Origin: Candidatus Zixiibacteriota bacterium | GTDB taxonomy: Bacteria; Zixibacteria; MSB-5A5; WJJR01 | DNA length: 35,829 nt | NCBI GenBank assembly: GCA_036397555.1 | Contig: DASWIS010000030.1 | Location: forward strand, 1-35,829 | Direction: 5' to 3' | In this document: piece by piece, positions 2,398 through 35,829 of the stretch | Layout of the letters: every line of letters starts with the position of its first letter | How positions within the stretch are numbered: the stretch's first letter is position 1 | Notes under the pieces: generated by a model | Seen by the model: only the letters and a program-made list of their open reading frames with translations | Told to the model about the DNA's origin: nothing | Database searches by the model: none | Program-made: the position numbers and the translations under genes

Positions 2398-4254
2398 CTA
2401 AAGACTATCGCACGGATCACAAAACGCGGACGCCGGATCGGCCGCGCGGAAGGCGACGTCGACGAACTTGACGACGTCGAAGACGTTGGTCACGCCGCTG
2501 CAGTCGGCGTCGGTCTGCTCGTTGGGACAGTTCACATCAAACACGGGCGTGCCGCTGCGGAACGCGACATCGACCGCCGCCACAACATCAAACACGTTGG
2601 TGGTGCCGTCGCAGGCAGGGTCCGTATGGCACGGGCAGTCGCAGTCGCAGGCGTCGCCCAACCCGTCGAAGTCCGAGTCCTCCTGGCCCGGATTGAACAC
2701 ATCCGGACAGTTGTCGGCGCTGTTGATGACGCCATCGCCGTCGTCATCGGCATACAGCGGGTTGGTCACCGTGGCGTACAGTCGCGTGCCGACAATGGAA
2801 TCGACCTGCACCGAGATGCCCGACGCCCCTGAGTGGCCGTCGCTGCCGGGGAATGTGCCCGGCCCAAACAGTTCCTGCCCGGGGACATCATCGGAAAACA
2901 GGGCGCCGCGGCGTGTCTCATACGGATACCACCACTGCGCGCTGTCGGTGACATGCCCTTCGGGATTGCTGGTGTGGTCCATCGATGGATTGTAACCGGC
3001 GTCTTCGACCTGCACGACATAGAACGGGTTTCCGGTATTCGAGAACCAGTCGCCGAACGGTCCCTGGTGGATGTGCATGATGAGCAGGCCGCGATCGAGC
3101 GGATCATTGCCGAATGCCAGGTCGGGCCACAGCATGCAGGAAAAGTCTGAATCGAAACGATCATACGGCGCGCCCGATTCGGGATTGCGGTACTCCAGCA
3201 GGAAATACTCGTCATCGGCCATGTCGATCGGCACCAGATACAGCGCGCTGTCGCTTTCGGTCTGGATGTTGTTGAGCACGATGCTCGCGGGTGAATGCTC
3301 GATGATGATCGGATCGAGCCAGCCGAGCTGCTTCTTGCTCCAGCCGGAGAAGTGCGTCGGCACTTTGGCCGCGCCGATCGCCAGAATACCGTAACCATAG
3401 TATGCCATGATGTCCCAGTCGACGACCGGGTGATCGTTGGCATCATTCGGAGTCCAGCAGTTGACGACATCGAGACGGTTGTTCGGGTCGTAGAGATCGG
3501 GCAGGCCGATGTTGTGGCCCAGCTCATGGCAGTAGACGCGGATGCCGTTGAGCGTCCGCTCGCCGGTGAATTGGGTCGGATTCAGCGGATCGCGCAGCGG
3601 CATCATCTCCGGCGAAGTATTCCAGCGCGAGACGCGCTTGCCATCGAACGGCCCGGGGCCGTCGCCGGGAGCGTACACCGCGGCGAACGACCAGACTTCG
3701 GTGGGATCGTGCGTGTCCTCCTGGCCGGTGCCCGCGCGAACAAACACGACCGCATCGACATTGCCGTCATTGTCGCCGTCGTATTGCGAATAATCGATAA
3801 ACGGGTCCAGCGATTCCAACAAGTCCTCAAACCGTCCAAACATGACGCCGGGATTGTTCGGATAGGTGCCGTCGTTCCACCACCCCGAGACATCGCCCGC
3901 GATGATCATCTGGTCGTACGACACTTCGGCATAGTAATCGGCGACCGAACCGCCGGGAAACACGCCGCGCGAGAACATGAGACTGTCGAATGTGCCCGGC
4001 AGAAAATACGTCGCGGGCTTGTTCTCCCACTCCACCAGAATCGCCAGCACTTTGAGCGTATCGGCATCGAATTGGTACGCGGCGATCTTCTGCATCTCGT
4101 CGGCGGTCGGTTCCGGCGGCAGACGGTCGGCGTACTTTTGACGTTCCGACTCCGGCAGATGGAGAATCAGCGCGCCGCCGGATGCGGCGACTGCAGCTTG
4201 AGCGAACATCAGGACACCCACAAGGGTCAAAGCCAGTCGCACGTCGGTTCTCAT
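2398..4254 (-). CDS. Secreted M6-family metalloprotease with TSP3-like and dockerin-like C-terminus
   Basis: A 618-residue preproprotein. The start ATG at 4254 follows GAGGAG at good spacing and opens a signal peptide (about residues 1-24, ending AVAA). The peptidase domain carries [13 protein letters not shown] (calcium-site-like, about 158-170) and the zinc motif [11 protein letters not shown] (His243, Glu244, His247, Asp253), the HExxHxxGxxD pattern of M6 immune-inhibitor-A-like proteases. Residues about 499-535 form a thrombospondin type 3-like stretch ([19 protein letters not shown]). Residues 536-618 hold two 12-residue EF-hand-like loops, [12 protein letters not shown] and [12 protein letters not shown], each followed by VVxxVDVAFR: a dockerin-like module with added cysteines. 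Expected to digest protein outside the cell. It is the last of four adjacent minus-strand genes with the same C-terminal module. Confidence 0.88.
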
Positions 4255-4307
4255 GTTTGCTCCTCAAGTCAAGGTCGCGCGCGTAGGGCGCACAAAGTTT
4301 TGTTGTT

Positions 4308-4359
4308 GCGTCACCCGACCCAGGTGACGCTCCTACCGCCACGCGAGGACGCGTGGCGG
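4308..4359. repeat. Double-hairpin intergenic repeat
   Basis: Two adjacent palindromes lie between the M6 gene and the next gene upstream. GCGTCACC (4308-4315) pairs with GGTGACGC (4323-4330), and CCGCCACGCG (4336-4345) pairs with CGCGTGGCGG (4350-4359) around a four-base loop. The first hairpin recurs near 8237-8262, so this looks like a dispersed REP-type repeat. It could also act as a transcript-processing or stabilising hairpin between the two genes. Confidence 0.65.
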
Positions 4360-4393
4360 GCACATTTCCATCCACACTCATTAAACTCTTCAA

Positions 4394-6583
4394 TCAAAGA
4401 CACACCGTGCAAAACACCGTCGCCGGGTTGCCGTTGCGGAAGGCGACGTCGACTAAGGCGACGACGTCGAAGACATTGGTCACATTGTCGCAGGTGACAT
4501 CGGTCGTGGCGCGCGGACACAGCGGGTTCGGATCGGGAATCGGTGCGCCGTTGCGGAAGGCGACATCGACCGCCGCCACGACGTCGAATACATTGGTGAT
4601 GCCATCGCACTGGGGATCGCCGAAGCAATCGCACGCACAGGGCCCGCCCGACAGATACAGCCGCCCGCCGTCCCAGACGGGATTGTAAGTCGCGGTCCGC
4701 GCCTCCGCCGTCAGCGCGAATCCCTCCAGCGGGTCGAACGACAAGCCGACGGTGTCGCCGGGCTCGGCGGCGGCCTTGATGGTCATGTAGATTTTGGCGA
4801 TCGGCCCGGTGCCCGGCTCCAGCGGCGGCGACCCGCCCCCGAAATCGGCGGTCAGTTTAACCGCCCGCTGCCCGAAGAAGCCATTGTTGAACACCGCGAC
4901 TTGCTGCTCGAAATACTCCGTGCGGCAGCCGTGGGTTTTCAGTGAATCGAAGGTGGCAATGGCGGGCACATTGGTCAGCGAGACCGGAATCGTGATCGCC
5001 TCCAGCGGCAGCGCGTTGGTCGCGATGACTTCCCAGACCAGTTTGCCGGTGTCCTGCGGCGCGGAGAAATTGGGGCCATCAACCGTGTCGGCCCACACCG
5101 TGATAAAGTCGCGTTTGATCGTGTAGCGCTGCCCGTCGTTGGTGAAGGCGCGCAGCTCGACATCGTAGACTCCGGGATCGTAGGCGTGCACGGGGTTTTC
5201 GACGTCGGCGGAGTCGCCGTCGCCGAAGTACCACTTCCATCCGGTCGTCGTAAACGGGGCGTCATAGGTGTAGCTGACGTCCAACGGCGCCTGGCCCTGC
5301 TGCACGTCGGCTTCGAAGTTGCCGCGCGCGATCGAATTGTCGAGCGTGCCGCGTCCGAGCGTGCTGTTGACCCAGTCGAGCTCCTGCTGGGTCATGATGC
5401 CCAGCGCCCAGTCCAGCTCGCCCGGTATCGGCGGATCGCCCGGGGCGTGGAACATGATCCACGCCGCTTTGAAGTGCTTTTGCGCCGTCTCCGAGCTGGG
5501 AATGCGCGGGCCGTTGGCCGCGATTATTTCCGCCGATCCGAAATCGAAGATGGCGCCGTTGTAGGGGGAGACGCACCCGGTTTCCATGAAACGCAACTCG
5601 GAATTCCCGGCGTCCATCTCGGCCGGTGAGACATACCCCATCAGGTACAAGTCGCAGTAGCTCCAGACACCGTCGGGAATGTCGGTATTGAAACTGAGCG
5701 TCGGGGCGATGCGCGTCGCCGGCGACGATCCCGACCAGTTGGCGATTTCCATACCCGACCCCTGGCCATCGACGCGGAAACTCCAGTGCGCCGAGCGTCC
5801 GCAGGAGGCATCGTCGCCCTGCAGGTCGCGTCCGCCGACAATCGGACTGAGAAACATCCCAAAACGGTGCTCGAATTCCTGCGCCAGCACCAGCCGCGTG
5901 AAGTTGCCGAACATGCCGGTTCCGGGCGCCCAGTCGTATTGATTCCACATCATGACGAACCCCTCGACGTTATTCCCGGCCAGGCCGAAGCCGGCGCGCT
6001 CCTGGTAGAGCGAGCTGCCGATGCCGCTGACGTTGTTTTCGATCCCCTGATAAAATGCCGCGCCAAACTGGTGGCTCGGAACCTGCAGCAGCCAAAAGCA
6101 GATGTAATCCCACTGATCGCCGTGCTCGGCCATCAGCGCATTGGCGGAGTTGACCATCAGCGCGGTCAGTTGCGGATCGGTGTAGTCGCTGCGCAGGATG
6201 TCGTCGGTGTCCTCGTAGACGAACACGTCGTCGTAGGTGAGCGGCGTGCCCGGCATTCGTCCGAACTCGACCCGGGGCCCAACTTTGGGAATGCCCTTGA
6301 CCGCCGGATCGGGGACTTCGCCCTTGGCGATCCCCTCCTGATAGATGCTCAGCCACTCCTCGGGGCTGCGCCAGCCGCATTCGGGAATGGCCGGCACCGG
6401 GTCGGGCACAGCCGCCGTCTGACCGGCGGGGGCGACCGTGACAAGGACGGGCTTCGAGGATGCGCGAGCGGATACGGATGCGATCTGCTCCTCCCCCATG
6501 GCCCCGATCGCAATCACGGCGATCGCGACCAAGACGCACAGACCAAGGCCGGTGCGGAGAACACTCTTCTTCGATGTCATCAT
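4394..6583 (-). CDS. Secreted gluzincin-like protein (degenerate zinc motif) with PKD, cohesin-like and dockerin-like domains
   Basis: A 729-residue protein; ATG 6583 follows GGAG. A signal peptide or anchor spans about residues 10-30. Residues 230-330 resemble a family of secreted metalloproteases (later motif DLYLMGYVSPAEM), but where HExxH is expected the sequence reads QEFEH (235-239, codon CAG for the first His), so zinc binding is probably lost or changed. A PKD domain follows (about 424-498, with WYFGDGD), then a cohesin-like beta-sandwich (about 513-645, with PLEPGTGPIAKI and GDTVGLSF), then a dockerin-like pair of loops (649-729: DPQCDGITNVFD and DVTCDNVTNVFD). It may be a non-catalytic binding or scaffold protein derived from a protease. 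It sits between other genes with the same module. Confidence 0.8.
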   Translation of the reverse strand: MMTSKKSVLRTGLGLCVLVAIAVIAIGAMGEEQIASVSARASSKPVLVTVAPAGQTAAVPDPVPAIPECGWRSPEEWLSIYQEGIAKGEVPDPAVKGIPKVGPRVEFGRMPGTPLTYDDVFVYEDTDDILRSDYTDPQLTALMVNSANALMAEHGDQWDYICFWLLQVPSHQFGAAFYQGIENNVSGIGSSLYQERAGFGLAGNNVEGFVMMWNQYDWAPGTGMFGNFTRLVLAQEFEHRFGMFLSPIVGGRDLQGDDASCGRSAHWSFRVDGQGSGMEIANWSGSSPATRIAPTLSFNTDIPDGVWSYCDLYLMGYVSPAEMDAGNSELRFMETGCVSPYNGAIFDFGSAEIIAANGPRIPSSETAQKHFKAAWIMFHAPGDPPIPGELDWALGIMTQQELDWVNSTLGRGTLDNSIARGNFEADVQQGQAPLDVSYTYDAPFTTTGWKWYFGDGDSADVENPVHAYDPGVYDVELRAFTNDGQRYTIKRDFITVWADTVDGPNFSAPQDTGKLVWEVIATNALPLEAITIPVSLTNVPAIATFDSLKTHGCRTEYFEQQVAVFNNGFFGQRAVKLTADFGGGSPPLEPGTGPIAKIYMTIKAAAEPGDTVGLSFDPLEGFALTAEARTATYNPVWDGGRLYLSGGPCACDCFGDPQCDGITNVFDVVAAVDVAFRNGAPIPDPNPLCPRATTDVTCDNVTNVFDVVALVDVAFRNGNPATVFCTVCL

Positions 6584-6757
6584 TCACTCCGGGGCGACTG
6601 ACGTTACGACGTTTTGATGTAAGTCACGGACTCCCCGGCATGTGAGGGCACGCAGGGGTCGATTCCGGGGTAAGATAAGGCCAATCTGGGGTTTTGGGGA
6701 TGGGGAAAAGGGGGGCTATACCGCTGGGCCGTCACGCGCCATGGCGCGGCCGCCCGC

Positions 6758-8203
6758 TCAATCCGGATTACAAAATGACTGCGCCGCGTCGGCTCCACGG
6801 AATGCTACATCGACGAAGCGAACCACATCGAAGACATTGGTGGTGCCGTTGCAGTCGACGTCGGTCCGTGTCCAGGAACATCCAGCCGACTGCTCGATCG
6901 GAGCCGTCACGGCACGGAAGGCCACATTCACCGCCTGCACCACATCGAGCACATTGATAACGCCGTCGCACACAGGATCAGTGTGGCAAGTACAAGGTGA
7001 CTCGGCTTCTGAGTCCGCCACCAGCCCGACAATCACAATCCCTTTGTGGAACTCGGGTACGATGGTCGACATGTCATCGGCGCTGATGAACGACAGATGG
7101 TTACCCGGCGCCAGACAGCAGGTGTCAATTTCGAAGCGACCCGGTGCGTCTTTGACGTCAAAACAGATCACGAGCGACGGGTCGCCGTTGCCGGGGTAGC
7201 CGTCATACCCCGGTGCCAAGACCGGACCGTCAATCCGATACCCGCTCCACAGCAATCCATCCGGACTGACAAAGAGCGGCTCCCCGACACCGCCCCCTGA
7301 TGAGTCAAAACCAAAATCCTCGCAGTCATCCACAGACGGGGCCCCATAGTAATCCGGCCCGATGACCGACTCGACTAACCCACTCGCCGACAACCGTCCC
7401 CCTATCTGAACATCCGCAAAGTCGCGGACAAAAGCAGCTCCGTTGACGCTGCGAAACTCCAATGGAAATGCGATCCCCGCCAAGTCGACCAGATTCTCGA
7501 TGTAAACACCGACTTTCACCGAATCGGCTCCGGCGTCCACGGAGACAGAGTCCAAATAGACAGCGTTTGCCGGAAGCGGTCTCCCAGTGCAGATGTATCC
7601 CTTTTCGAAACTGAATGCCACCGGTTCACCATACTCATTTACGCCACCAAGATGCTCGGAGGGAATAACGCAACACGTGTCAATCTCAAAGCACCCACTC
7701 AAACCATTGGTTCTAAGGAGAATCTGCAATGACGGGACACCTGAACCCGGTACACCGTCCGTGCCAATCGGGACAACTTGATCGACCCAAATCCTCGAAA
7801 GGAATACCGCATCGGGTGCCACGCGGTCCCAAAACTGCTGAAATATGGCATATGCATGCGAAACTGGTCCGGTGCAATCGTGGGAAAGAGGTGTATATCC
7901 TTCACCAATCGTTTCAAATGCATTACCGAAGGCAAGCCTACCTGAAACGTTCTTACGCATGAATGGGTCCTTCGACAGATAGGCGTCGCCCCTAAGTTGC
8001 CGCAGCTCCAATGGGCAGACAAACGAGGAGATCGGTACATCGTTGGTCACGTACACTCCAACTGATATCTCAACCTGACCCATTCCTGTGATTTCTTTCG
8101 ATTCGACCTGCACGTGATTGAGGGCATGCGCAGTCGATGCCGCGAACATCGTAACCCACACCGACGCAAAGAGACTCGAGCGTCTGACAGTAATCCCAGG
8201 CAT
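6758..8203 (-). CDS. Secreted protein with two cohesin-like domains and a dockerin-like C-terminus
   Basis: A 481-residue protein with a signal peptide (about residues 1-27, ending TAHA); ATG 8203 follows AAGGA. No enzyme motif is visible. It is built from two similar beta-rich domains, about 30-205 and 215-395. Each opens with a run such as VEISVGVYVTND or VKVGVYIENL, has a PLE(L/F)R segment, and closes with FEIDTCC followed by P..HL. I read these as cohesin-like beta-sandwiches; the same template occurs in the 29672-32017 gene. The last ~80 residues hold two dockerin-like loops, DPVCDGVINVLD and DVDCNGTTNVFD. A protein with two cohesin-like modules and one dockerin-like module has the layout of an adaptor scaffold. 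Cohesin assignment is by eye and moderate; the dockerin-like part is clear. Confidence 0.75.
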   Translation of the reverse strand: MPGITVRRSSLFASVWVTMFAASTAHALNHVQVESKEITGMGQVEISVGVYVTNDVPISSFVCPLELRQLRGDAYLSKDPFMRKNVSGRLAFGNAFETIGEGYTPLSHDCTGPVSHAYAIFQQFWDRVAPDAVFLSRIWVDQVVPIGTDGVPGSGVPSLQILLRTNGLSGCFEIDTCCVIPSEHLGGVNEYGEPVAFSFEKGYICTGRPLPANAVYLDSVSVDAGADSVKVGVYIENLVDLAGIAFPLEFRSVNGAAFVRDFADVQIGGRLSASGLVESVIGPDYYGAPSVDDCEDFGFDSSGGGVGEPLFVSPDGLLWSGYRIDGPVLAPGYDGYPGNGDPSLVICFDVKDAPGRFEIDTCCLAPGNHLSFISADDMSTIVPEFHKGIVIVGLVADSEAESPCTCHTDPVCDGVINVLDVVQAVNVAFRAVTAPIEQSAGCSWTRTDVDCNGTTNVFDVVRFVDVAFRGADAAQSFCNPD

Positions 8204-8236
8204 TTCGGTCCTTCGATGTGATCCCGATGTCGCTTA

Positions 8237-8262
8237 GGCGTCACCAGAGGGCGGGTGACGCC
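8237..8262. repeat. REP-like hairpin
   Basis: GGCGTCACC (8237-8245) pairs with GGTGACGCC (8254-8262) in the gap between two dockerin-like genes. It shares its stem with the hairpin at 4308-4330, so it is probably a dispersed repeat. It has no T-run and is not a convincing terminator. Confidence 0.6.
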
Positions 8263-8302
8263 ACGAGGTGTCGTTAATCGGAATATACAGTGTCAGCGTG
8301 TG

Positions 8303-10465
8303 CTACAACCCGCACGACTGACAAAATGTAGTCCCCGCGTCCGCCGCGCGGAAGGCGACGTCGACGAGCTTGACGACGTCGAAGACATTGACCGTGCCGT
8401 CGCAATTGACGTCTGAGCGCGCCCAGGGGCATTGCAAAAGCGGGTCGGGCGTGATCGCGCCGTTGCGGAAGGCGATCTCGACGGTCGCGACGATGTCGAG
8501 GACTTCGGTGGTGCCGTCGCAGACCGGATCGGTGTGGCACTGGCACTCGCACGGCGGCGTCAGGATGGTCAGCGCGCCATCGTCGCCGAAGATGCCGATG
8601 TCGGTCGCGTCGATTTTGGCCGACGGCGCATACCCCTCCAGCGGCGTGTTGATGCTTAAGACGAGCGAATCGCCAAAGACGGCGCCCGGCTTGATTGTCA
8701 GATGGACACGCGCGATCGGACCCGATCCCGGCGGCAACGGCGGCAAGCTGCCGTCGAAGCTGGAGATTAATCGGATCACCATCTGGCCGAAGAGCTTGTT
8801 ATTGAACAGCGTCTGTGATCCGAGGAACAACTGTGTCCGCGTGCCCGCCATCGTGATCGAATCAAGCGTGGCATAGGCCGGAATCTGCGAGATCGAGATC
8901 GGCAGCGTAATCTGCGAGAGGGGCACGTGATTGTTGATGTTGATATCCCATGTCACCTCCGCCCCGGGCAGGGCGCTGTCGGCATTCACCACCAATGATT
9001 CGGCCAACGCAGTGATGAATGCAGTCTTGGTGCGCATCGCGCCGCCGGTCGGCGAGGCCGCAGTGAGCGTGACCGTGTGCTGTCCGGCGTTATAAATGTG
9101 CTGGGGATTGGGCGCGTCGGATGTGTCGCCGTCGCCGAAGTCCCAGTGCCAGCCGGTCGGGTAGTTGCGCGCATCTTCGGTGAAGTTTACGGTCCATGGT
9201 GCATCGCCGAAGGCCGTGTCGGCGTCAAAATCGGCCACTTCCCAGCCAATGATCGTGAAGTTCGGCCCCTGGTTCTCATTGATCAATCCCGGTATCGAGA
9301 CCGGCGACGGCCAGAAGTTGTCCGATGGGCCGCCGACCTCCGGCGTGAACGAATAGATTTTTTCGTGATCGTCGGTGTCGCCATACATCCAGTCGTCGGA
9401 GTCGCCATTGGTGCGATACAGTTCCCAACCCACCTGCGGCGTGTACCCATTGAAGCTCGCCAGCGAGTCGCCGATGTACTGGAAGAAATCATGCTCCGGC
9501 GTATAGACAAAATCATACCCCCACGGCCAGAGATACAGGTCGGAATACGAATGGTAGTTGAGCGCGAAAACGAATTGACGGCTGTTGACGAAATCGCGCA
9601 TCGCCTGCGTCTCCGGCTCGCTGAAGGCCGAGGGGCCGCGATAGACCTCGCTGCCGGTGTTCGACGAGGAGCCGTTGTTGTCGTACCCCCAGTTGTGTCC
9701 GTAGTTGCGGTTCAGATCGACACCGATGTTCGACCCATTCGAGTTGTTGCGGTTTTTGCGCCACATGCCGCCGCCGAACGGCGCAATGGTACGGTTGTAT
9801 TCGTACCCGTCGGGATTGACCACCGGGATTAAGAAGACTTCGCGGTTGTCGACCAGGAGGGTGGTCAAGGGATCGGTGCCGTAGTCGCGTGTGAGTCGGC
9901 GCAGAGTCTCGAGCACGACTTCCACCGTGATCGGTTCGCGCGCGTGGTGCAAGCCGTTGATCAGCACTTCGATTTCGTCTTCGTCGACTTCGGGATTGTC
10001 GGAGACCTTGATCGCCCAGATCTCGCGCCCTTCAAAACTCTGCCCGATGGAGAATTTGGCCGTCGTGATCGACGGAAAGGCCGCGTGGACCGAATCCAAA
10101 ACCGTTATCGCCTCGGCGTAGGTTTTGAATCCCCCCATCGTCTTTTGCGGATACAGCTTGGCGTAATGATCGTACCAGTCGGCGATTTCGACGCTGATGT
10201 CAAAGCCGTCAGCCCGCAACGAAGCCAACTGGGCCGCGTCGACCAGAATCCGGAACACCCCCGCGCGCGGGTCGGGGTGGTGATCGAGGATGTCGATGTC
10301 GCGGCTGTAGGCGATGGCAATTTCGCCGGGGTCTTTGAATTCCCAACGGGCAATGATCTTCTTTTCGAGAAACGCCCTGTCGGCGGCCGTCAATTCGGCG
10401 CTCAGCGCCGGCGTCCACGCCAACAGCCCGATCGCCATCCCCGTTGCGAGGATCACCTTGCGCAT
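8303..10465 (-). CDS. Secreted M14 zinc carboxypeptidase with PKD, cohesin-like and dockerin-like domains
   Basis: A 720-residue preproprotein; ATG 10465 sits five bases after AAGGAG, and the signal peptide is about residues 1-23 (ending LSA). The M14 catalytic domain (about 105-400) keeps all key residues: the HxxE zinc pair in HHAREP (His174, Glu177), DLNRNYGHNW with the substrate-binding Asn-Arg (252-253), NYHSY with the third zinc ligand His305, and FTPEVGG with catalytic Glu376. It should remove C-terminal amino acids from peptides outside the cell, like carboxypeptidase T. A PKD domain (about 420-485, DFGDGD), a cohesin-like domain (about 488-625, with PPGSGPIARV) and two dockerin-like loops (DPVCDGTTEVLD, DVNCDGTVNVFD) follow. 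Its C-terminal half has the same domain order as the 4394-6583 protein, so the two share ancestry there. Confidence 0.9.
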   Translation of the reverse strand: MRKVILATGMAIGLLAWTPALSAELTAADRAFLEKKIIARWEFKDPGEIAIAYSRDIDILDHHPDPRAGVFRILVDAAQLASLRADGFDISVEIADWYDHYAKLYPQKTMGGFKTYAEAITVLDSVHAAFPSITTAKFSIGQSFEGREIWAIKVSDNPEVDEDEIEVLINGLHHAREPITVEVVLETLRRLTRDYGTDPLTTLLVDNREVFLIPVVNPDGYEYNRTIAPFGGGMWRKNRNNSNGSNIGVDLNRNYGHNWGYDNNGSSSNTGSEVYRGPSAFSEPETQAMRDFVNSRQFVFALNYHSYSDLYLWPWGYDFVYTPEHDFFQYIGDSLASFNGYTPQVGWELYRTNGDSDDWMYGDTDDHEKIYSFTPEVGGPSDNFWPSPVSIPGLINENQGPNFTIIGWEVADFDADTAFGDAPWTVNFTEDARNYPTGWHWDFGDGDTSDAPNPQHIYNAGQHTVTLTAASPTGGAMRTKTAFITALAESLVVNADSALPGAEVTWDININNHVPLSQITLPISISQIPAYATLDSITMAGTRTQLFLGSQTLFNNKLFGQMVIRLISSFDGSLPPLPPGSGPIARVHLTIKPGAVFGDSLVLSINTPLEGYAPSAKIDATDIGIFGDDGALTILTPPCECQCHTDPVCDGTTEVLDIVATVEIAFRNGAITPDPLLQCPWARSDVNCDGTVNVFDVVKLVDVAFRAADAGTTFCQSCGL

Positions 10466-21467: not shown

Positions 21468-21784
21468 GTGCGCCGGGTTCCCGGCAATCCGTGCAGGTCA
21501 GCCCAAGGGCTGACCCGCACGGAACATGGTATCGATAACCGTCAATCACAGCTCAAAAACACGGCACGTCCTGTGGACGGCGAATTCACGCAGAACATTG
21601 TGCGCCGGGTTCCCGGCAATCCGTGCAGGTCAGCCCAAGGGCTGACCCGCACGGAATATGGTATCGATAACCGTCAATCACAGGTCAAAAGCACGGCACG
21701 TCCTGTGGATGGCGAATTCACGCAGAACATTGTGCGCCAAGTTCCTGACACTCTGTGCCGGTCAGCCCTTGGGCTGACCCGCAC
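21468..21784. repeat. 132-base tandem repeat carrying a REP palindrome
   Basis: A unit beginning GTGCGCC starts at 21468, 21600 and 21732, an exact period of 132 bases; two copies are full and the third is partial and diverged. Each contains a palindrome of the form GGTCAGCCC-NN-GGGCTGACC (21491-21520, 21623-21652, 21755-21784), extended by GTGC and GCAC. The rest of the 400-base gap (21399-21802) holds no gene that I can support. The repeats lie between the lipoprotein stop and the acetyltransferase start. Confidence 0.85.
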
Positions 21785-21802
21785 GCGGTGCCGATCGCAC
21801 GT

Positions 21803-29671: not shown

Positions 29672-32017
29672 TTACCGCAGCAACGTCATCTTCCGCGTCA
29701 TGACCTGCTCGCCCGCCTGCAAGCGATAGAAGTACACGCCGGAGGCGGCACGTCTGCCCCGGTCATCCTCGCCGCTCCAGTAAACCGAGTGACGCCCCGG
29801 ATCGCAGGGCTTGTCCATCAGCCGCGTGACATGCCGTCCGAGGATATCATAGACATCCACGCGCGCGTCGCACGCCACCGGCAGCGAGAAGCGGATGACG
29901 GTGGAGGCGTTGAAGGGGTTGGGGTAGTTTGGGGAAAGCTGCCAATCGGTCGGAGCGTGCTCGACACGTGCCAATTCGCCATACCGGACGCAATCGTACC
30001 CCGTAACGACGTCCCCATGGGATGTCAAACCGCTAAACCCAATCGGCAGAGTCAAACCGACGTTCGGCGTGCCGAGGGTTGAAAGCATCGCCTCGCGCGC
30101 GAAATACAATATTAGATCTGTGTGGCCATCGGCCTCAGGCGGATGGCACGGGCACCGGTCGGCATCGATCGTGGATGCGTTCGTCGCCACATCGTCGTAC
30201 TCCCAATGCAGCGCGGCGATATCGCCTTGTCTGAAAGATTCCGGCCGAAACTGCGCCACGTCGATGCTTGGCGAGCCAAGAACCGCAACCCTGACTTCGC
30301 CAGTGTCCGACTTGGCATTGAGCGCTCCAGGGCATTGGCCCGGTTCAATGTCGAACTGTACAATGAGCAGCGGGCGATTCACATCGGGAGAAAACCCGTC
30401 GGATCGCAGGCGCACAACCTTTGGCAACGGCACGACACACTCGCCGACGACCCCGAACTCATCATGAACCGTAATGCGCACCGTGGTGTCTGCGGGGGTC
30501 AGGAATGATCCGGCGGGCGGATCCTGCTCCTTGCGGAGTATGCCATCGACGGCGCATGCCGTAACCTCACGCGCATAATCCGGCACGACCGGCGCGTCGC
30601 CGTAGCGGACGAAGAGATACATCGGGGACGGGCAATCGATATGCAGCGGTGTGCGTTGAACGATGCGAACATGGGCTGTGCAGGTGTCCTCGAGCGGACG
30701 GTCGCTGACCACGAGCTGAACATCATACTCGCCGGGTCCGCGCCAGCGCCGGTCGATAACTCGGAGTGAGAGATTGTCTCCGTCGGGATCGTAACTGCCC
30801 CCGTCGACAAGTTTCGGCTCCATGAACACAGTACAGGCGGAATCCAATTCGATGGTCGTGTCCCGACAGACGGCAACGGGCCGTGTGTTGTCCCGGACAT
30901 CGACAGTCGCCGGACACGTGTCGGACAATTCCCCATCGGACACGATTAGCACGACATCGTGAATTCCCTCCGCCAACCATCCGTCGGGCACGACGGCCAG
31001 GCTCACTCGGTCTCCGTCGGGATCATACGAGCCGTCGTTCACTCTCGAAGCAAATACTCGCGTACCGCCGGATGTGTCACTGCGAATGATCACATCGTGG
31101 CATTGCGCGACAGGGCGACGGTTATCCAGGACCGTCAACTGAGATTGACAACTGTCATTGAGCACACCATCTGAGACAACAAGAGTGACTTGGTGTTCAC
31201 CCGGTTCCCAAGCCCCGTGAGGAATCAACCAATAGCCGATCGGATCGCCATCGGGATCAAACGATCGACTGCCAATCACCGCGGCGCTGACTTGCACCGT
31301 CGGCATGGCCCCCGTCCCTATGGTGGTATCATGACAGACGGCAATAGGAGGCAGATTCGGGCGCATCGCACCGACGGTGACCATGCCGGGCTGAAACCGC
31401 GGGAAAAGCAGGCCCCGAATATTCGCCGGGGCGAGCGGAACAAATGAGAATTTATTCGCGGGCGCAACACAGCACGTGTCGATCTTGAAGCGGCCAGTGA
31501 CCTCGGTGACATCAAAGTGCAACAGAATCGACGGCTCACCCGACTGATCGTTGCCCTCCGGCAGCGGATTGCCGCTTGCCACGATCCCGACCCACATGAA
31601 GGCATCAGGGCTCTCGAAGAACCCCGGCTGACTTGTTGATCCTGATTGCTCTGACCAAGCGTAAGACTCCGGGCAGATTCCCTGACCTGTGTATCCGACT
31701 GGTCCACGCGGCTCCCCATAGTAGTAAAGCCCCCCAAACTCCATCAGTCCGGACAGTATCACACGCCCCTGAGAGACGACTTCGAACCGCTCGCGGATGA
31801 ACGATCCTTCTTCAATCGATCGGATCTCAAGCGGCACCACGACTCCCAAAAGCGGTTCATCATTACTCAGATACACCCCGACCCTGACATCCGTGGCCCC
31901 CGGCTCGACGTGCTTCGATTCGACGATGACGGAGTTCTCCGCCCCGGCGGGACCGGCGATCAACAGCAGCAGGGCTGCGGCCATTCGGACGACCTGTCGA
32001 TTCGGGTCCGCTTTCAT
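29672..32017 (-). CDS. Secreted cohesin-like/PKD-like protein with FlgD/type IX C-terminal tail
   Basis: A 781-residue protein. ATG 32017 follows GGGGAGGGG and opens a signal peptide (about residues 10-27, ending AGAE). The first domain (about 30-215) matches the cohesin-like domains of the 6758-8203 protein: VRVGVYLSND, VPLEIRS, and FKIDTCCVAPANKF. Three PKD/cadherin-like repeats follow, each starting near PxAVC(H/R)D and containing the calcium-type motif YDPDGD. After a cysteine-bearing linker the last ~80 residues read NYPNPFNAST ... VYDILGR ... GVYFYRLQAGE ... RKMTLLR, the FlgD-like/Por sorting tail used by type IX secretion. It is the only protein here that pairs a cohesin-like domain with such a tail, so it could anchor dockerin-bearing proteins at the surface. 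No enzyme motif. Confidence 0.8.
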   Translation of the reverse strand: MKADPNRQVVRMAAALLLLIAGPAGAENSVIVESKHVEPGATDVRVGVYLSNDEPLLGVVVPLEIRSIEEGSFIRERFEVVSQGRVILSGLMEFGGLYYYGEPRGPVGYTGQGICPESYAWSEQSGSTSQPGFFESPDAFMWVGIVASGNPLPEGNDQSGEPSILLHFDVTEVTGRFKIDTCCVAPANKFSFVPLAPANIRGLLFPRFQPGMVTVGAMRPNLPPIAVCHDTTIGTGAMPTVQVSAAVIGSRSFDPDGDPIGYWLIPHGAWEPGEHQVTLVVSDGVLNDSCQSQLTVLDNRRPVAQCHDVIIRSDTSGGTRVFASRVNDGSYDPDGDRVSLAVVPDGWLAEGIHDVVLIVSDGELSDTCPATVDVRDNTRPVAVCRDTTIELDSACTVFMEPKLVDGGSYDPDGDNLSLRVIDRRWRGPGEYDVQLVVSDRPLEDTCTAHVRIVQRTPLHIDCPSPMYLFVRYGDAPVVPDYAREVTACAVDGILRKEQDPPAGSFLTPADTTVRITVHDEFGVVGECVVPLPKVVRLRSDGFSPDVNRPLLIVQFDIEPGQCPGALNAKSDTGEVRVAVLGSPSIDVAQFRPESFRQGDIAALHWEYDDVATNASTIDADRCPCHPPEADGHTDLILYFAREAMLSTLGTPNVGLTLPIGFSGLTSHGDVVTGYDCVRYGELARVEHAPTDWQLSPNYPNPFNASTVIRFSLPVACDARVDVYDILGRHVTRLMDKPCDPGRHSVYWSGEDDRGRRAASGVYFYRLQAGEQVMTRKMTLLR

Positions 32018-32158
32018 CTCGATACCCCTCCCCCGGTTCTTGTCCCTATCCAGGAACACATACAAATAAGGCGCCCCGCTATTCCCGGAAAGGATATTCA
32101 AAGTAAAACGCCGGCGGCACGCAGCGGCTGTCAAAACGTTGGGCGCGGCCGCATAAAG

Positions 32159-32194
32159 AAACCGGGGTGGGATCGCTTGATCCCACCCCGGTTT
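32159..32194 (-). terminator. Rho-independent terminator of the cysteine-repeat gene
   Basis: AAACCGGGGTGGGATC (32159-32174) pairs perfectly with GATCCCACCCCGGTTT (32179-32194) around a four-base loop. On the minus strand it is followed by CTTTATG, and it lies 22 bases after the stop at 32216. Confidence 0.9.
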
Positions 32195-32215
32195 GGTATG
32201 GCTTGGTTCCACCGA

Positions 32216-35200
32216 CTACGGACAACTGGTCGGGTACGGCGTACACAGACACGGATCGCAGATCCGATTCGGGTCGCCGTTGCGGAACGCGATGTCGACG
32301 AGCAGCACGACGTCGAAGACGTTCACCGTTCCGTCACAGTTCGCATCTTCGCACGGCACCGCCACTGACGGCACGCAGTTCGGGAAGAATGCGGATGCGC
32401 CGGCACGGAACGCCACATCGACCGCCTTGACGACATCGAAGACGTTGATGACGCCGTTGCAATCGGCACAGTCACCGTGGCACGAGCAGTCGCATGCGAT
32501 GAAGCAGATCGGCAGCCCGTTGCAGGTCTGGTACCCGCCGCAGGTCGGGATACCGGCGCACGTCGTGATCGGCGCGCAAGTATTGGTCCCCGGACACGTG
32601 ACCGCACCCTGGCAAGTGAGCTTCGCCCAGCAGGTGAGCGTCCGATTACAAGTCGGATTGCCGGGGCAGGTGCCCGCGCCCACGCAGGTGATCATGCCCG
32701 CCGCGCAGGTTTGGAATCCGCCGCAGGTGTTGGTACCCGGACAGCTCGCGGCTCCGGTGCAACTGGCCGTATTGGAGCACGTCGGCGTGTTCGGGCACGT
32801 GTGCGCCCCATCACATGTCGCCGTGAAGTGGCACGTCGTGAACCCTTCGCACGTGATGTTGTTGAAGCAGGTCACGTGTTCCGGACACGTCGGGCCGCCC
32901 GGACAGGTCGTGTTCCAGCAGGTCTCCATGTCAACGCATGTCGGCGTCCACTGGCACGTGTTCATCCAGCAGCAAGTCGGCTGAATGTCGCAGGTGACTC
33001 CCGCCGGATCGCACGTGAGGTACCCAACGCAACTGGCCATGCCTACGCATGTCTCGAAGCCGACACAGGTGATTTGCGTCTGTCCGCAGGTCGGCGCCGG
33101 ACGGCACGTCTGCGTGCCGTCGCAGGTCGGAACACCCGGTGAAGTCGCCGATTTGCAGGTCGGACCGCTGCCGCAGGTCGCGGACCCCTCGCAGGTATTG
33201 AAGCCCGGACAGGTATAGAAGTCCCGACACGTCGGCTGACCCGGACAGGTCTGCGTTTGACACGTCTGCGTTCCCGCGCATGTCAGACCACCATGGCAGG
33301 AGCTGAATCCGCCGCATGTCGGCCCGTCGGTGCTGCAGGAAATCGAATTGATGCAGGTGACCGAACCGTCGCAGGTGATAAAGTACGGACACGTCGATTC
33401 ACCGAAACACGTGGGACCGAACGTGCCGCACGTTACAAGACCCTCACAGGTCACCAGCCCGAAGCAACTCGGCGTGCCCTGGCATGAGGCGGTATGGACA
33501 CAGGACGGCTGATCCGGACAGGTGATCGTACCCGGACAGGTCGTCGTGCCGTTACAGGTGAAAGTGCCCGGACAGGTCGAAATGCCGAAACAGGTAAACG
33601 ACGACCCGCACGAGATCGTGCCGAAGCATGTCCCGGTTCCCGGACACGTGTTCCAGTCGCTGCACGTGATATAGATCGGGCAGGTACTGGCGCCCACGCA
33701 ACTGGCGAAGGTCCCGCATGTGGATTGTCCGACAGCGCACGAGGACATCGAGCCGCAGGTGTGATGCGGGTCGCACGTCGGCGTTCCATAACACGACGCG
33801 TCCCCGCGACAGGTAAACTGGCCCGGACAAGTGTTGGCGCCCGGACAGGTTCTGGAGCCCTGACATGTTTGGCCCCAGCCCGCGCAGGTGTTCACGTCGG
33901 CGCAGGAGAAGCTTCCCGGGCACGTGGTTGTGCCGTCGCAGGTGAGCGCGCCGCCCGGACACGTCTGCTGATCGCAAGTGAACTGGAAGACGCATGTCGG
34001 CGCGTTCGGACAGGTGTTCGCCCACGCGCAGGTCAGAGTTCCCTGACAGGTCGGCCCCGTCGCACCATCGCATGTGAGCGTGTTGCACGTCGGGTTGCCG
34101 ATGCAGGTGGTAAAACCGGTGCAACTGGCCATACCCATGCATGTCGGCAGGGCTTCGTTGCACGTCGTTGTTCCCGGACAGGTCGGCTGACCCGGACAGG
34201 TACCGACGGAGGCACAGGTCAATTGCTCGCTGCCGCAGGTGGCCGATCCGATACACGTTGATGTTCCCGGACAACTCTGGTGCCCATCGCACGTCGGCGT
34301 GCCGTCGCAACTCTGGAACGTGTGGCATGTCGGCGCCTGATCGCATGTCGGTGCAGCGGGATCGCAGGTCGGCTGGCCCGGACAGGTCGCGGCCGCACCG
34401 CAACTGATGTAATGCCCGCATGTCGCCAGGCCGTCGCATGATGGCGTTCCCTGGCAGGTGATGTCACTGGCGAGGCAGGAGACCTGACCGTCGCATGTCA
34501 TCCAGCCCGGACAAGTCGCGACACCCGCGCAGGAACTCCACTGCTGACACGTCGGCTGGCCGCCGCATGTCGGGTAATCCTGACAGGTGTGCGTGTTCCA
34601 ACATGTCGAAGCGCCATCGCATGAGGGCGTGTTGTTGCATGTCGGGTAATGGAGACACGTGGGCTGATCATCGCAGGTCTGCGAGCCGCATGTCGATGAA
34701 CCCGGACAGGTGATCGTCCCGTCGCAGGAGTCTCCGCCGGGACAGGTGAATTGACCCTGGCAGGTGTTGGTCGCGTCGCACGAGGCGGTGCCGGAACATG
34801 ACGGCGATCCCGGACAGGAATTCTGACTCTCGCACGTGAAGGTCTCGCAAGTCGGGAATCCCGGGAAAGTCGGCGGCAGACAGTTGGGATCGTCTGCGCT
34901 ACAGGTAAACTCGCCTTCGCATGTGGCGAATCCCGGGCAGGTCATCACGCCGAAACAGGTTTGTCCGCCGTCACAAGTCGGGGTGCCGTCACAGGTGGCG
35001 CCGCCGGTAAAGCACGATGGCGTCCCTTCGCAGGTCACCCACCCGACACAGGTCGGCTTGCCATCGCAGGTCGCCGTCGCACCTTCGCACGTCGGCGTGC
35101 CCTGATTGGTCACCAGCAGCGACGGGTCGCTGGGCTGATCGATGGCGGGCTGTTCGTCATCGGCAGCCGCCACCTCAACGGGCGCCTGCGAGCGGTCCCG

Positions 35201-35395
35201 TTCGTCAAGTTTGTCGACTGAGGTTTTGAGACTGTGTTCGAAAAGTGGAGACGGTTGTGGATCTTCCGCAGCCAGCGCCAGCGTGGGCGCCAGTGCCAAG
35301 CTCAAAGCGATGACGGCGATTATGGCGCCGCCACATGTACAAATGCACGCCCGAGCCCAGCGACTGCTACATCGCTCGATTACCCAAGTTACCAT
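32216..35395 (-). CDS. Giant secreted cysteine-hexapeptide repeat protein with dockerin-like C-terminus
   Basis: A 1059-residue protein; ATG 35395 follows GGAGGTGG. A signal peptide (hydrophobic core about residues 23-42, ending LALA) is followed by a polar linker to about residue 100. Residues 101-964 are an unbroken array of hexapeptides of consensus (T/S)-C-x-G-x-x, for example TCPGQPTCPGTT. I count 142 cysteines there, a mean spacing of 6.1, with occasional 5-, 7- or 8-residue steps; nearly every Cys follows Thr or Ser. Residues about 965-1059 hold two dockerin-like loops (DCADCNGVINVFD and DANCDGTVNVFD) and a Cys-rich end. The Cys spacing equals that of the 12-residue Tenebrio antifreeze beta-helix (two Cys per turn), so a long disulfide-braced solenoid is plausible. 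Function unknown; no enzyme motif. Confidence 0.88.
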   Translation of the reverse strand: MVTWVIERCSSRWARACICTCGGAIIAVIALSLALAPTLALAAEDPQPSPLFEHSLKTSVDKLDERDRSQAPVEVAAADDEQPAIDQPSDPSLLVTNQGTPTCEGATATCDGKPTCVGWVTCEGTPSCFTGGATCDGTPTCDGGQTCFGVMTCPGFATCEGEFTCSADDPNCLPPTFPGFPTCETFTCESQNSCPGSPSCSGTASCDATNTCQGQFTCPGGDSCDGTITCPGSSTCGSQTCDDQPTCLHYPTCNNTPSCDGASTCWNTHTCQDYPTCGGQPTCQQWSSCAGVATCPGWMTCDGQVSCLASDITCQGTPSCDGLATCGHYISCGAAATCPGQPTCDPAAPTCDQAPTCHTFQSCDGTPTCDGHQSCPGTSTCIGSATCGSEQLTCASVGTCPGQPTCPGTTTCNEALPTCMGMASCTGFTTCIGNPTCNTLTCDGATGPTCQGTLTCAWANTCPNAPTCVFQFTCDQQTCPGGALTCDGTTTCPGSFSCADVNTCAGWGQTCQGSRTCPGANTCPGQFTCRGDASCYGTPTCDPHHTCGSMSSCAVGQSTCGTFASCVGASTCPIYITCSDWNTCPGTGTCFGTISCGSSFTCFGISTCPGTFTCNGTTTCPGTITCPDQPSCVHTASCQGTPSCFGLVTCEGLVTCGTFGPTCFGESTCPYFITCDGSVTCINSISCSTDGPTCGGFSSCHGGLTCAGTQTCQTQTCPGQPTCRDFYTCPGFNTCEGSATCGSGPTCKSATSPGVPTCDGTQTCRPAPTCGQTQITCVGFETCVGMASCVGYLTCDPAGVTCDIQPTCCWMNTCQWTPTCVDMETCWNTTCPGGPTCPEHVTCFNNITCEGFTTCHFTATCDGAHTCPNTPTCSNTASCTGAASCPGTNTCGGFQTCAAGMITCVGAGTCPGNPTCNRTLTCWAKLTCQGAVTCPGTNTCAPITTCAGIPTCGGYQTCNGLPICFIACDCSCHGDCADCNGVINVFDVVKAVDVAFRAGASAFFPNCVPSVAVPCEDANCDGTVNVFDVVLLVDIAFRNGDPNRICDPCLCTPYPTSCP

Positions 35396-35507: not shown

Positions 35508-35537
35508 TCAATATGAGCAAAGAATTTGTCATGTCAA
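35508..35537 (-). promoter_or_regulatory. Possible promoter of the cysteine-repeat gene
   Basis: On the minus strand TTGACA (35537-35532) is followed after 18 bases by TATTGA (35513-35508). It would give a 5' leader of about 105 bases before the start at 35395. The -35 box is perfect but the -10 box is weak. The 434-base gap 35396-35829 holds no gene I can support; besides this promoter it carries only REP palindromes. Confidence 0.4.
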
Positions 35538-35712: not shown

Positions 35713-35829
35713 CCGGTCAGCCCACGGGCTGACCGGCACACGACAACAGGTAGGGTTTCAATGTGCGGGTCAGCCCTTGGGCTGACACCAGGCAGGATTG
35801 GGATCGGTACTGTGCGGGTCAGCCCTTGG
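35713..35829. repeat. REP palindrome cluster (same family as 21491-21784)
   Basis: Three copies of the GGTCAGCCC/GGGCTGACC palindrome occur: CCGGTCAGCCC (35713-35723) with GGGCTGACCGG (35726-35736), a copy at 35763-35786 with a broken right arm, and one cut by the window edge at 35812-35829. They match the palindromes in the 132-base tandem repeat 14 kb away, so the family is dispersed in this genome. Confidence 0.8.

Follow-up and report, generated by a model that had tools for sequence, protein, structure and literature searches.

A cysteine-hexad array defines a clade-restricted family of probably exported proteins in Zixibacteria

The window, by which we mean the whole stretch of 35,829 nucleotides analyzed here from a Candidatus Zixiibacteriota bacterium, contains an open reading frame on the minus strand running from an ATG at 35395 down to 32216, stop codon included. 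Its translation has 1059 amino acids, and orthologues support the coding sequence. The preliminary description, which named no strand, had read it as a secreted protein built of cysteine hexapeptides, and that reading holds. All features of the gene lie on the minus strand. Residues 1-43 (MVTWV...LALAA; 35267..35395) are a probable Sec signal peptide, judged from their sequence and from a layout shared with relatives. They are followed by the motif EDPQPSPLFEHSLKTSVDKL (residues 44-63; 35207..35266), which is conserved in relatives and is predicted by AF2 to be a helix with low to moderate confidence, and by a linker that is variable in the orthologue alignment (residues 64-101; 35093..35206). 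The array of TCxGxx units occupies residues 102-965 (32501..35092), as delimited by unit count and orthologues. Profile comparisons place a cysteine cluster and a dockerin-like pair of F-hand repeats (DCNGVINVFDVV...NCDGTVNVFDVV) at 32246..32494, and the protein ends in a Cys tail, CDPCLCTPYPTSCP (32219..32260), that is near-identical in several relatives. The order of modules in the family is Sec signal, SDPQPSPLFQQSLKTSV motif, array and dockerin-like pair. No catalytic domain was found in the protein by Pfam search.

The gene is probably its own transcription unit, given a terminator-like stem after the stop and a promoter-like site upstream. The former is a perfect stem of 15 bp with an AAGC loop and a T-rich tail directly 3' of the stop codon (32155..32193), and is likely an intrinsic terminator. 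The latter consists of the hexamers TTGACA-16-CATATT upstream of the start (35510..35537), identified by consensus match only.

The whole protein has 158 cysteine residues, of which 142 fall within the (T/S)C-x-G-x-x array, running from Cys103 to Cys964 with a mean spacing of 6.11. The unit length is six residues in 116 of the 142 units, seven in 15 and five in 7. Units of four, five, seven and eight residues break the register, and it is held by two units that lack Cys, TFPGFP and TSPGVP, where Phe or Ser replaces it. Position 1 of the 116 hexads is T in 93, S in 22 and I in one, while Gly at position 4 (74 of 116, or 64%) is common, not strict. Cys-Cys spacings of exactly six occur 115 times, compared with a mean of 10.1 and a maximum of 22 in 2000 shuffles of the mature protein. 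The Cys-every-six array is real. It is acidic, with 50 Asp and Glu residues against 8 Lys and Arg. As 114 of the 116 hexads are distinct the array is not a DNA repeat, and tandem-repeat finding within the gene gave only short scattered arrays of 15-36 bp in 2-4 copies.

Three full orthologues share 48-52% overall identity with this protein. Cys is kept at 94-97% between it and the three, and at 94-98% across all six pairs among the four proteins. Conserved Cys codons have switched synonymously (TGC/TGT) in 32-44% of cases with the three orthologues, and over the same range in the six pairs. The array coding is real, since relatives are present in eight other genomes and Cys is conserved despite codon switching. 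The alignments indicate that Cys, Thr and Gly of the array are under selection, with their codons free to switch. At the variable hexad positions, matches between orthologues exceed those of random unit pairing by 2.2-10 SD; the individual units are therefore orthologous, not the framework alone. Orthologues carry unit-specific conserved W, H, F and P at fixed units, and many units, including those of aberrant length, align in both position and length.

The eight further genomes belong to the same family and order as that of the window; two marginal matches elsewhere, 28-29% identical and interrupted by stops (E about 3e-4), were left uncounted. In a phylum-wide search the array was found in all nine genomes of this one Zixibacteria order and in none of 123 others. 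When GTDB contigs were scanned with the alignment, six loci came up in MAGs labeled Candidatus Zixiibacteriota (one labeled only 'bacterium'); a scan with the single protein gave no match because variable units had supplied its patterns. The array is fixed throughout this uncultured order. No Pfam or NCBIfam model covers it, either for the whole protein or for 29 segments, and our literature searches found no description of such a family, in agreement with the earlier view that it was undescribed in bacteria. By these comparisons the protein belongs to a new, clade-restricted family. It would rank among the most cysteine-dense long proteins known in bacteria. The multigene, order-wide family was not part of the preliminary description, nor were the N-terminal motif, the dockerin-like pair and the CcmH-like neighbors discussed below.

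Viral contigs contained no array. Searches of phage and plasmid proteins gave three matches, all rejected as composition: two of them fall in stretches whose annotated gene runs in the other direction, while the remaining one has 19.7% identity and lies in a long repeat-rich protein.

Family members differ widely in array length between paralogues, with 34 to about 229 Cys in the mature protein. The genome of the window carries two more array proteins, on contigs C3 and C7, and four tandem copies occur at locus L035. The longest member, L038 (8866-15407), is a giant array split into two open reading frames by a frame change, which could be an assembly error or real, so that its true length is uncertain. 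Some relatives have an extra N-terminal domain. From its sequence, L040 ends in a tail of the type IX secretion (T9SS) type that replaces the dockerin-like pair. Large relatives at L035 (18420-21275), L051 (3185-7105) and L054 carry the family N-terminal motif, but their arrays have only about 28 units and long domains of other kinds come after them.

The Cys-rich, dockerin-like tail is common to about 60 proteins of the 2.63-Mb genome. Within the window it is found on several other proteins (e.g. 2398-10465), including an M6-type metalloprotease. A profile of the tail family matches cellulosomal dockerins of known structure in the PDB (E = 1e-4), and Pfam Dockerin_1 matches four of nine aligned tails, the best at 1.9e-9; the copy on the array protein has no match and, unlike known dockerins, falls below Pfam detection. 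Its second repeat, DANCDGTVNVFD, fits the F-hand calcium loop DxNxDGxxNxxD, and the first is degenerate. Five cohesin domains above the Pfam cut-off are encoded in the same genome, as is SprA, the type IX secretion translocon. The protein thus resembles cohesin-dockerin proteins in its C-terminal pair of DxNxDGxxNxxD-type repeats and in the presence of cohesins in the same genome, but the tail is a Cys-rich variant and is attached to a Cys array, not to an enzyme. The sugar degradation of cohesin-dockerin systems is not indicated as a role for the array protein. The 60 or so tails and five cohesins possibly constitute a non-cellulosomal cohesin-dockerin surface system. Separately, a domain of ~185 residues with an invariant IDTCC motif is repeated at 6758-8203 and 29672-32212 of the window. 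It is cohesin-like by eye, and we do not claim cohesin identity for it at 6758-8203 or in the downstream gene as neither Pfam nor PDB gives support.

When the array profile is compared with the PDB, its best and only strong match is the antifreeze protein of Tenebrio (TmAFP; 1EZG), with E = 2.7e-5. This search recovers independently a resemblance proposed in the preliminary description. The composition bias of 51 bits exceeds the score of 27 bits, however, so the match is a lead and not proof. The only match to the whole protein in a phmmer search of the PDB, a tektin at 0.052, was judged meaningless. TmAFP has the repeat consensus TCTxSxNCxxAx, in which residues 2, 5, 8 and 11 of each 12 face inward and Cys2 is bonded to Cys8 (PMC8038014). 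The two proteins share a six-residue Cys spacing, a Thr preceding the Cys, an abundance of small residues and secretion. In contrast to TmAFP, which alternates T-C and N-C, the array hexads are all T/S-C and lack T-x-T, and the bacterial protein is roughly ten times longer, with a dockerin-like end. The small inward residues are only partly kept; over 2148 hexads the position equivalent to S5 and A11 of TmAFP is A, G, S, T or C in 58%, aromatic in 12% and V, I, L or M in 12%.

The preliminary description went further, suggesting a giant beta-solenoid, and this part has so far not been supported. AF2 gave a mean pLDDT of 33 and no solenoid for the full-length mature protein (8 sequences), and a mean pLDDT of 35 with neither strands nor solenoid for a 102-residue segment of 17 units (29 rows). 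Since AF2 reportedly produces confident but spurious solenoids when given perfect repeats (PMC11795689), its silence here counts mildly against one; the low pLDDT may be due to shallow alignments. The residue-avoidance signals are clearest at lags of one and two units. In same-position counts, D/E/N residues at position 3 recur in the adjacent unit less often than expected (28 against 50), as do non-Gly residues at position 4 two units on (96 against 131). This hints weakly at a two-hexad period of 12 residues. By eye, super-repeats of three or five units occur in, for example, L039 and L038, where a strict two-unit coil is not respected. No Pfam match to the left-handed hexapeptide beta-helix (transferase hexapeptide) was obtained with the whole protein or the 29 segments. 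Taken together we regard a two-hexad beta-solenoid as a tentative fold for the array, with clearly less than an even chance of being correct.

The number of Cys residues in the mature protein is even in 15 of 19 members and odd in four (one-sided binomial about 0.01). The count took in members complete from the N-terminal motif through to a stop, one of them counted by hand, and is suggestive only since the 19 share parentage. It suggests that the array cysteines may pair with each other. DsbA gave no match in the genome of the window, and Thioredoxin_4 and VKOR gave none in any of the nine genomes of the order, while controls matched; the search set comprised these three. This raises a testable question, namely how such cells, in the absence of any standard disulfide catalyst among those searched, make or forgo more than 70 disulfides per chain.

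Small CcmH-like proteins encoded near the array in several genomes are no more than candidates for a dedicated thiol helper. At L035, L036 and L048 the array gene diverges from two genes whose products are large membrane proteins carrying DUF4350/ABC_transp_aux domains; next come one or two genes encoding small anchored CcmH-like proteins, and at L036 an HDOD gene sits between the array gene and the pair. The domains were tested in L048 and L035 and assigned elsewhere by sequence similarity. The small CcmH-like proteins lie at L064 5058-5913, L035 2962-3718, L036 1658-2014 and L048 1768-2262, and one member matches PF03918 (E = 3.4e-6). They resemble CcmH in being membrane-anchored and in having a GK-x-G-x-xIR...YG core that bears a Cys motif. 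The Cys motif of CcmH is of the RCxxC type, whereas here it is C-P and then, about ten residues on, C-H-C, both invariant in the alignment; unlike CcmH, the neighbor sits with DUF4350/ABC_transp_aux genes. The distribution of CcmH-like proteins coincides exactly with that of the arrays (nine of 132 genomes). As the nine are a single clade, the co-distribution amounts to about one evolutionary event and is weak statistically. Array genes of the order's second family do not have CcmH-like genes next to them. We consider it unlikely, although conceivable, that these order-specific CcmH-like and DUF4350/ABC_transp_aux proteins form a dedicated machinery that builds a new type of protein architecture, a two-hexad-per-coil disulfide ladder of up to about 110 bonds per chain outside the cytoplasm with no recognizable DsbA or VKOR.

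We favor a reading, to which we give about an even chance, in which the protein is a structural, disulfide-bonded extracellular element such as a rod, spacer or stalk. The signal peptide would export it, and the array would fold into a stiff, extended body with its evenly spaced cysteines paired together, probably as neighbors in successive hexads. The dockerin-like pair might then dock it to cohesin-type modules, or to the surface system of about 60 other proteins, a role that one relative would fill with its type IX sorting tail. Surface location and cohesin binding are both inferred. The conserved units would provide a protease-resistant scaffold rather than a catalyst. If there are two hexads per coil with a rise of about 0.47 nm, 142 units span about 33 nm, and arrays of this kind may supply very long, very stable protein rods. 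For the structural reading we count the selection on Cys, Thr and Gly, the unit-by-unit orthology, the even Cys counts, the signal peptide, the lack of a catalytic domain, the dockerin-like end with its roughly 60 counterparts in the genome, the five cohesins, SprA and the T9SS-type tail of L040, the best PDB match being the disulfide-braced 1EZG, and the avoidance at lags 1 and 2. Against it we count the failure of AF2 to find a fold, the lack of matches to DsbA, Thioredoxin_4 and VKOR, the four odd Cys counts and the super-repeats of three or five units.

Four other explanations were weighed. The array might be an adhesin or binding surface, presenting a face to a mineral, polysaccharide or cell, with any rod incidental. 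The conserved W, H, F and P at fixed units are in keeping with this, and several source MAGs are labeled groundwater. Large, exported, Cys-rich proteins of Peribacteria, weakly similar to Myxococcus Cys-rich repeats, have been proposed to confer rigidity or act as attachment factors (PMC4736985). Our protein is likewise large, exported and very Cys-rich, but the array has no NCBIfam match to the Myxococcus Cys-rich repeats. No known binding domain was found in the array by Pfam and NCBIfam searches, and the wide variation in length among paralogues also argues against a ligand-binding face, which we consider unlikely.

Alternatively the cysteines could remain as free thiols, or take up soft metals (Cu, Zn, Hg, Fe), making the protein a metal- or thiol-reactive sponge, an extracellular buffer like metallothionein. 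Its acidic character and the missing DsbA-, Thioredoxin_4- and VKOR-type enzymes would fit, and five of the 29 segments weakly match the NCBIfam model of the copper-binding bufferin precursor (best 0.0037). That match is probably compositional, and we rejected identity as a bufferin copper RiPP because the MNIO modifying enzyme (PF05114) is absent from the genome. Moreover, metal thiolates usually have CxC or CxxC clusters, denser than Cys every six; the even Cys counts favor pairing, and the unit-specific conservation of residues other than Cys suggests a defined fold. A sponge is accordingly quite unlikely in our estimation.

We likewise consider quite unlikely a mostly disordered matrix polymer having no regular coil, in which intermolecular disulfides build an insoluble sheath or matrix. 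The pLDDT of about 34, the off-length units that interrupt the register and the weakness of the 12-residue signal speak for it, but under disorder one would not expect units, off-length ones included, to align in position and length between orthologues. Finally, ice binding as in beetle antifreeze, for which the profile match to 1EZG might be cited, has a negligible chance of being correct, because only 102 of 2148 hexads (4.7%) have Thr at position 3, a frequency that disfavors T-x-T ice ranks, as the preliminary description had recognized, bulky residues are common at that position and elsewhere, and no freezing habitat is indicated by the record titles.

In the genome of the window the DUF4350/CcmH-like operon is at the end of another contig, C15, and relatives place it head-to-head with the array gene. 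The last 68 bp of the window (35762..35829) are identical to the end of C15, a 49-bp tandem repeat. The same repeat also occurs elsewhere (L006, L010), so a join between the two contigs is likely but not proven. It is an interspersed repeat with the core TCAGCCCAAGGGCTGACCCGCAC, seen at 35762-35829 and 21468-21785 of the window and at L006, L010 and L064; it forms 49-bp tandem arrays at the C15 end and 132-bp arrays in the window, and marks contig breaks.
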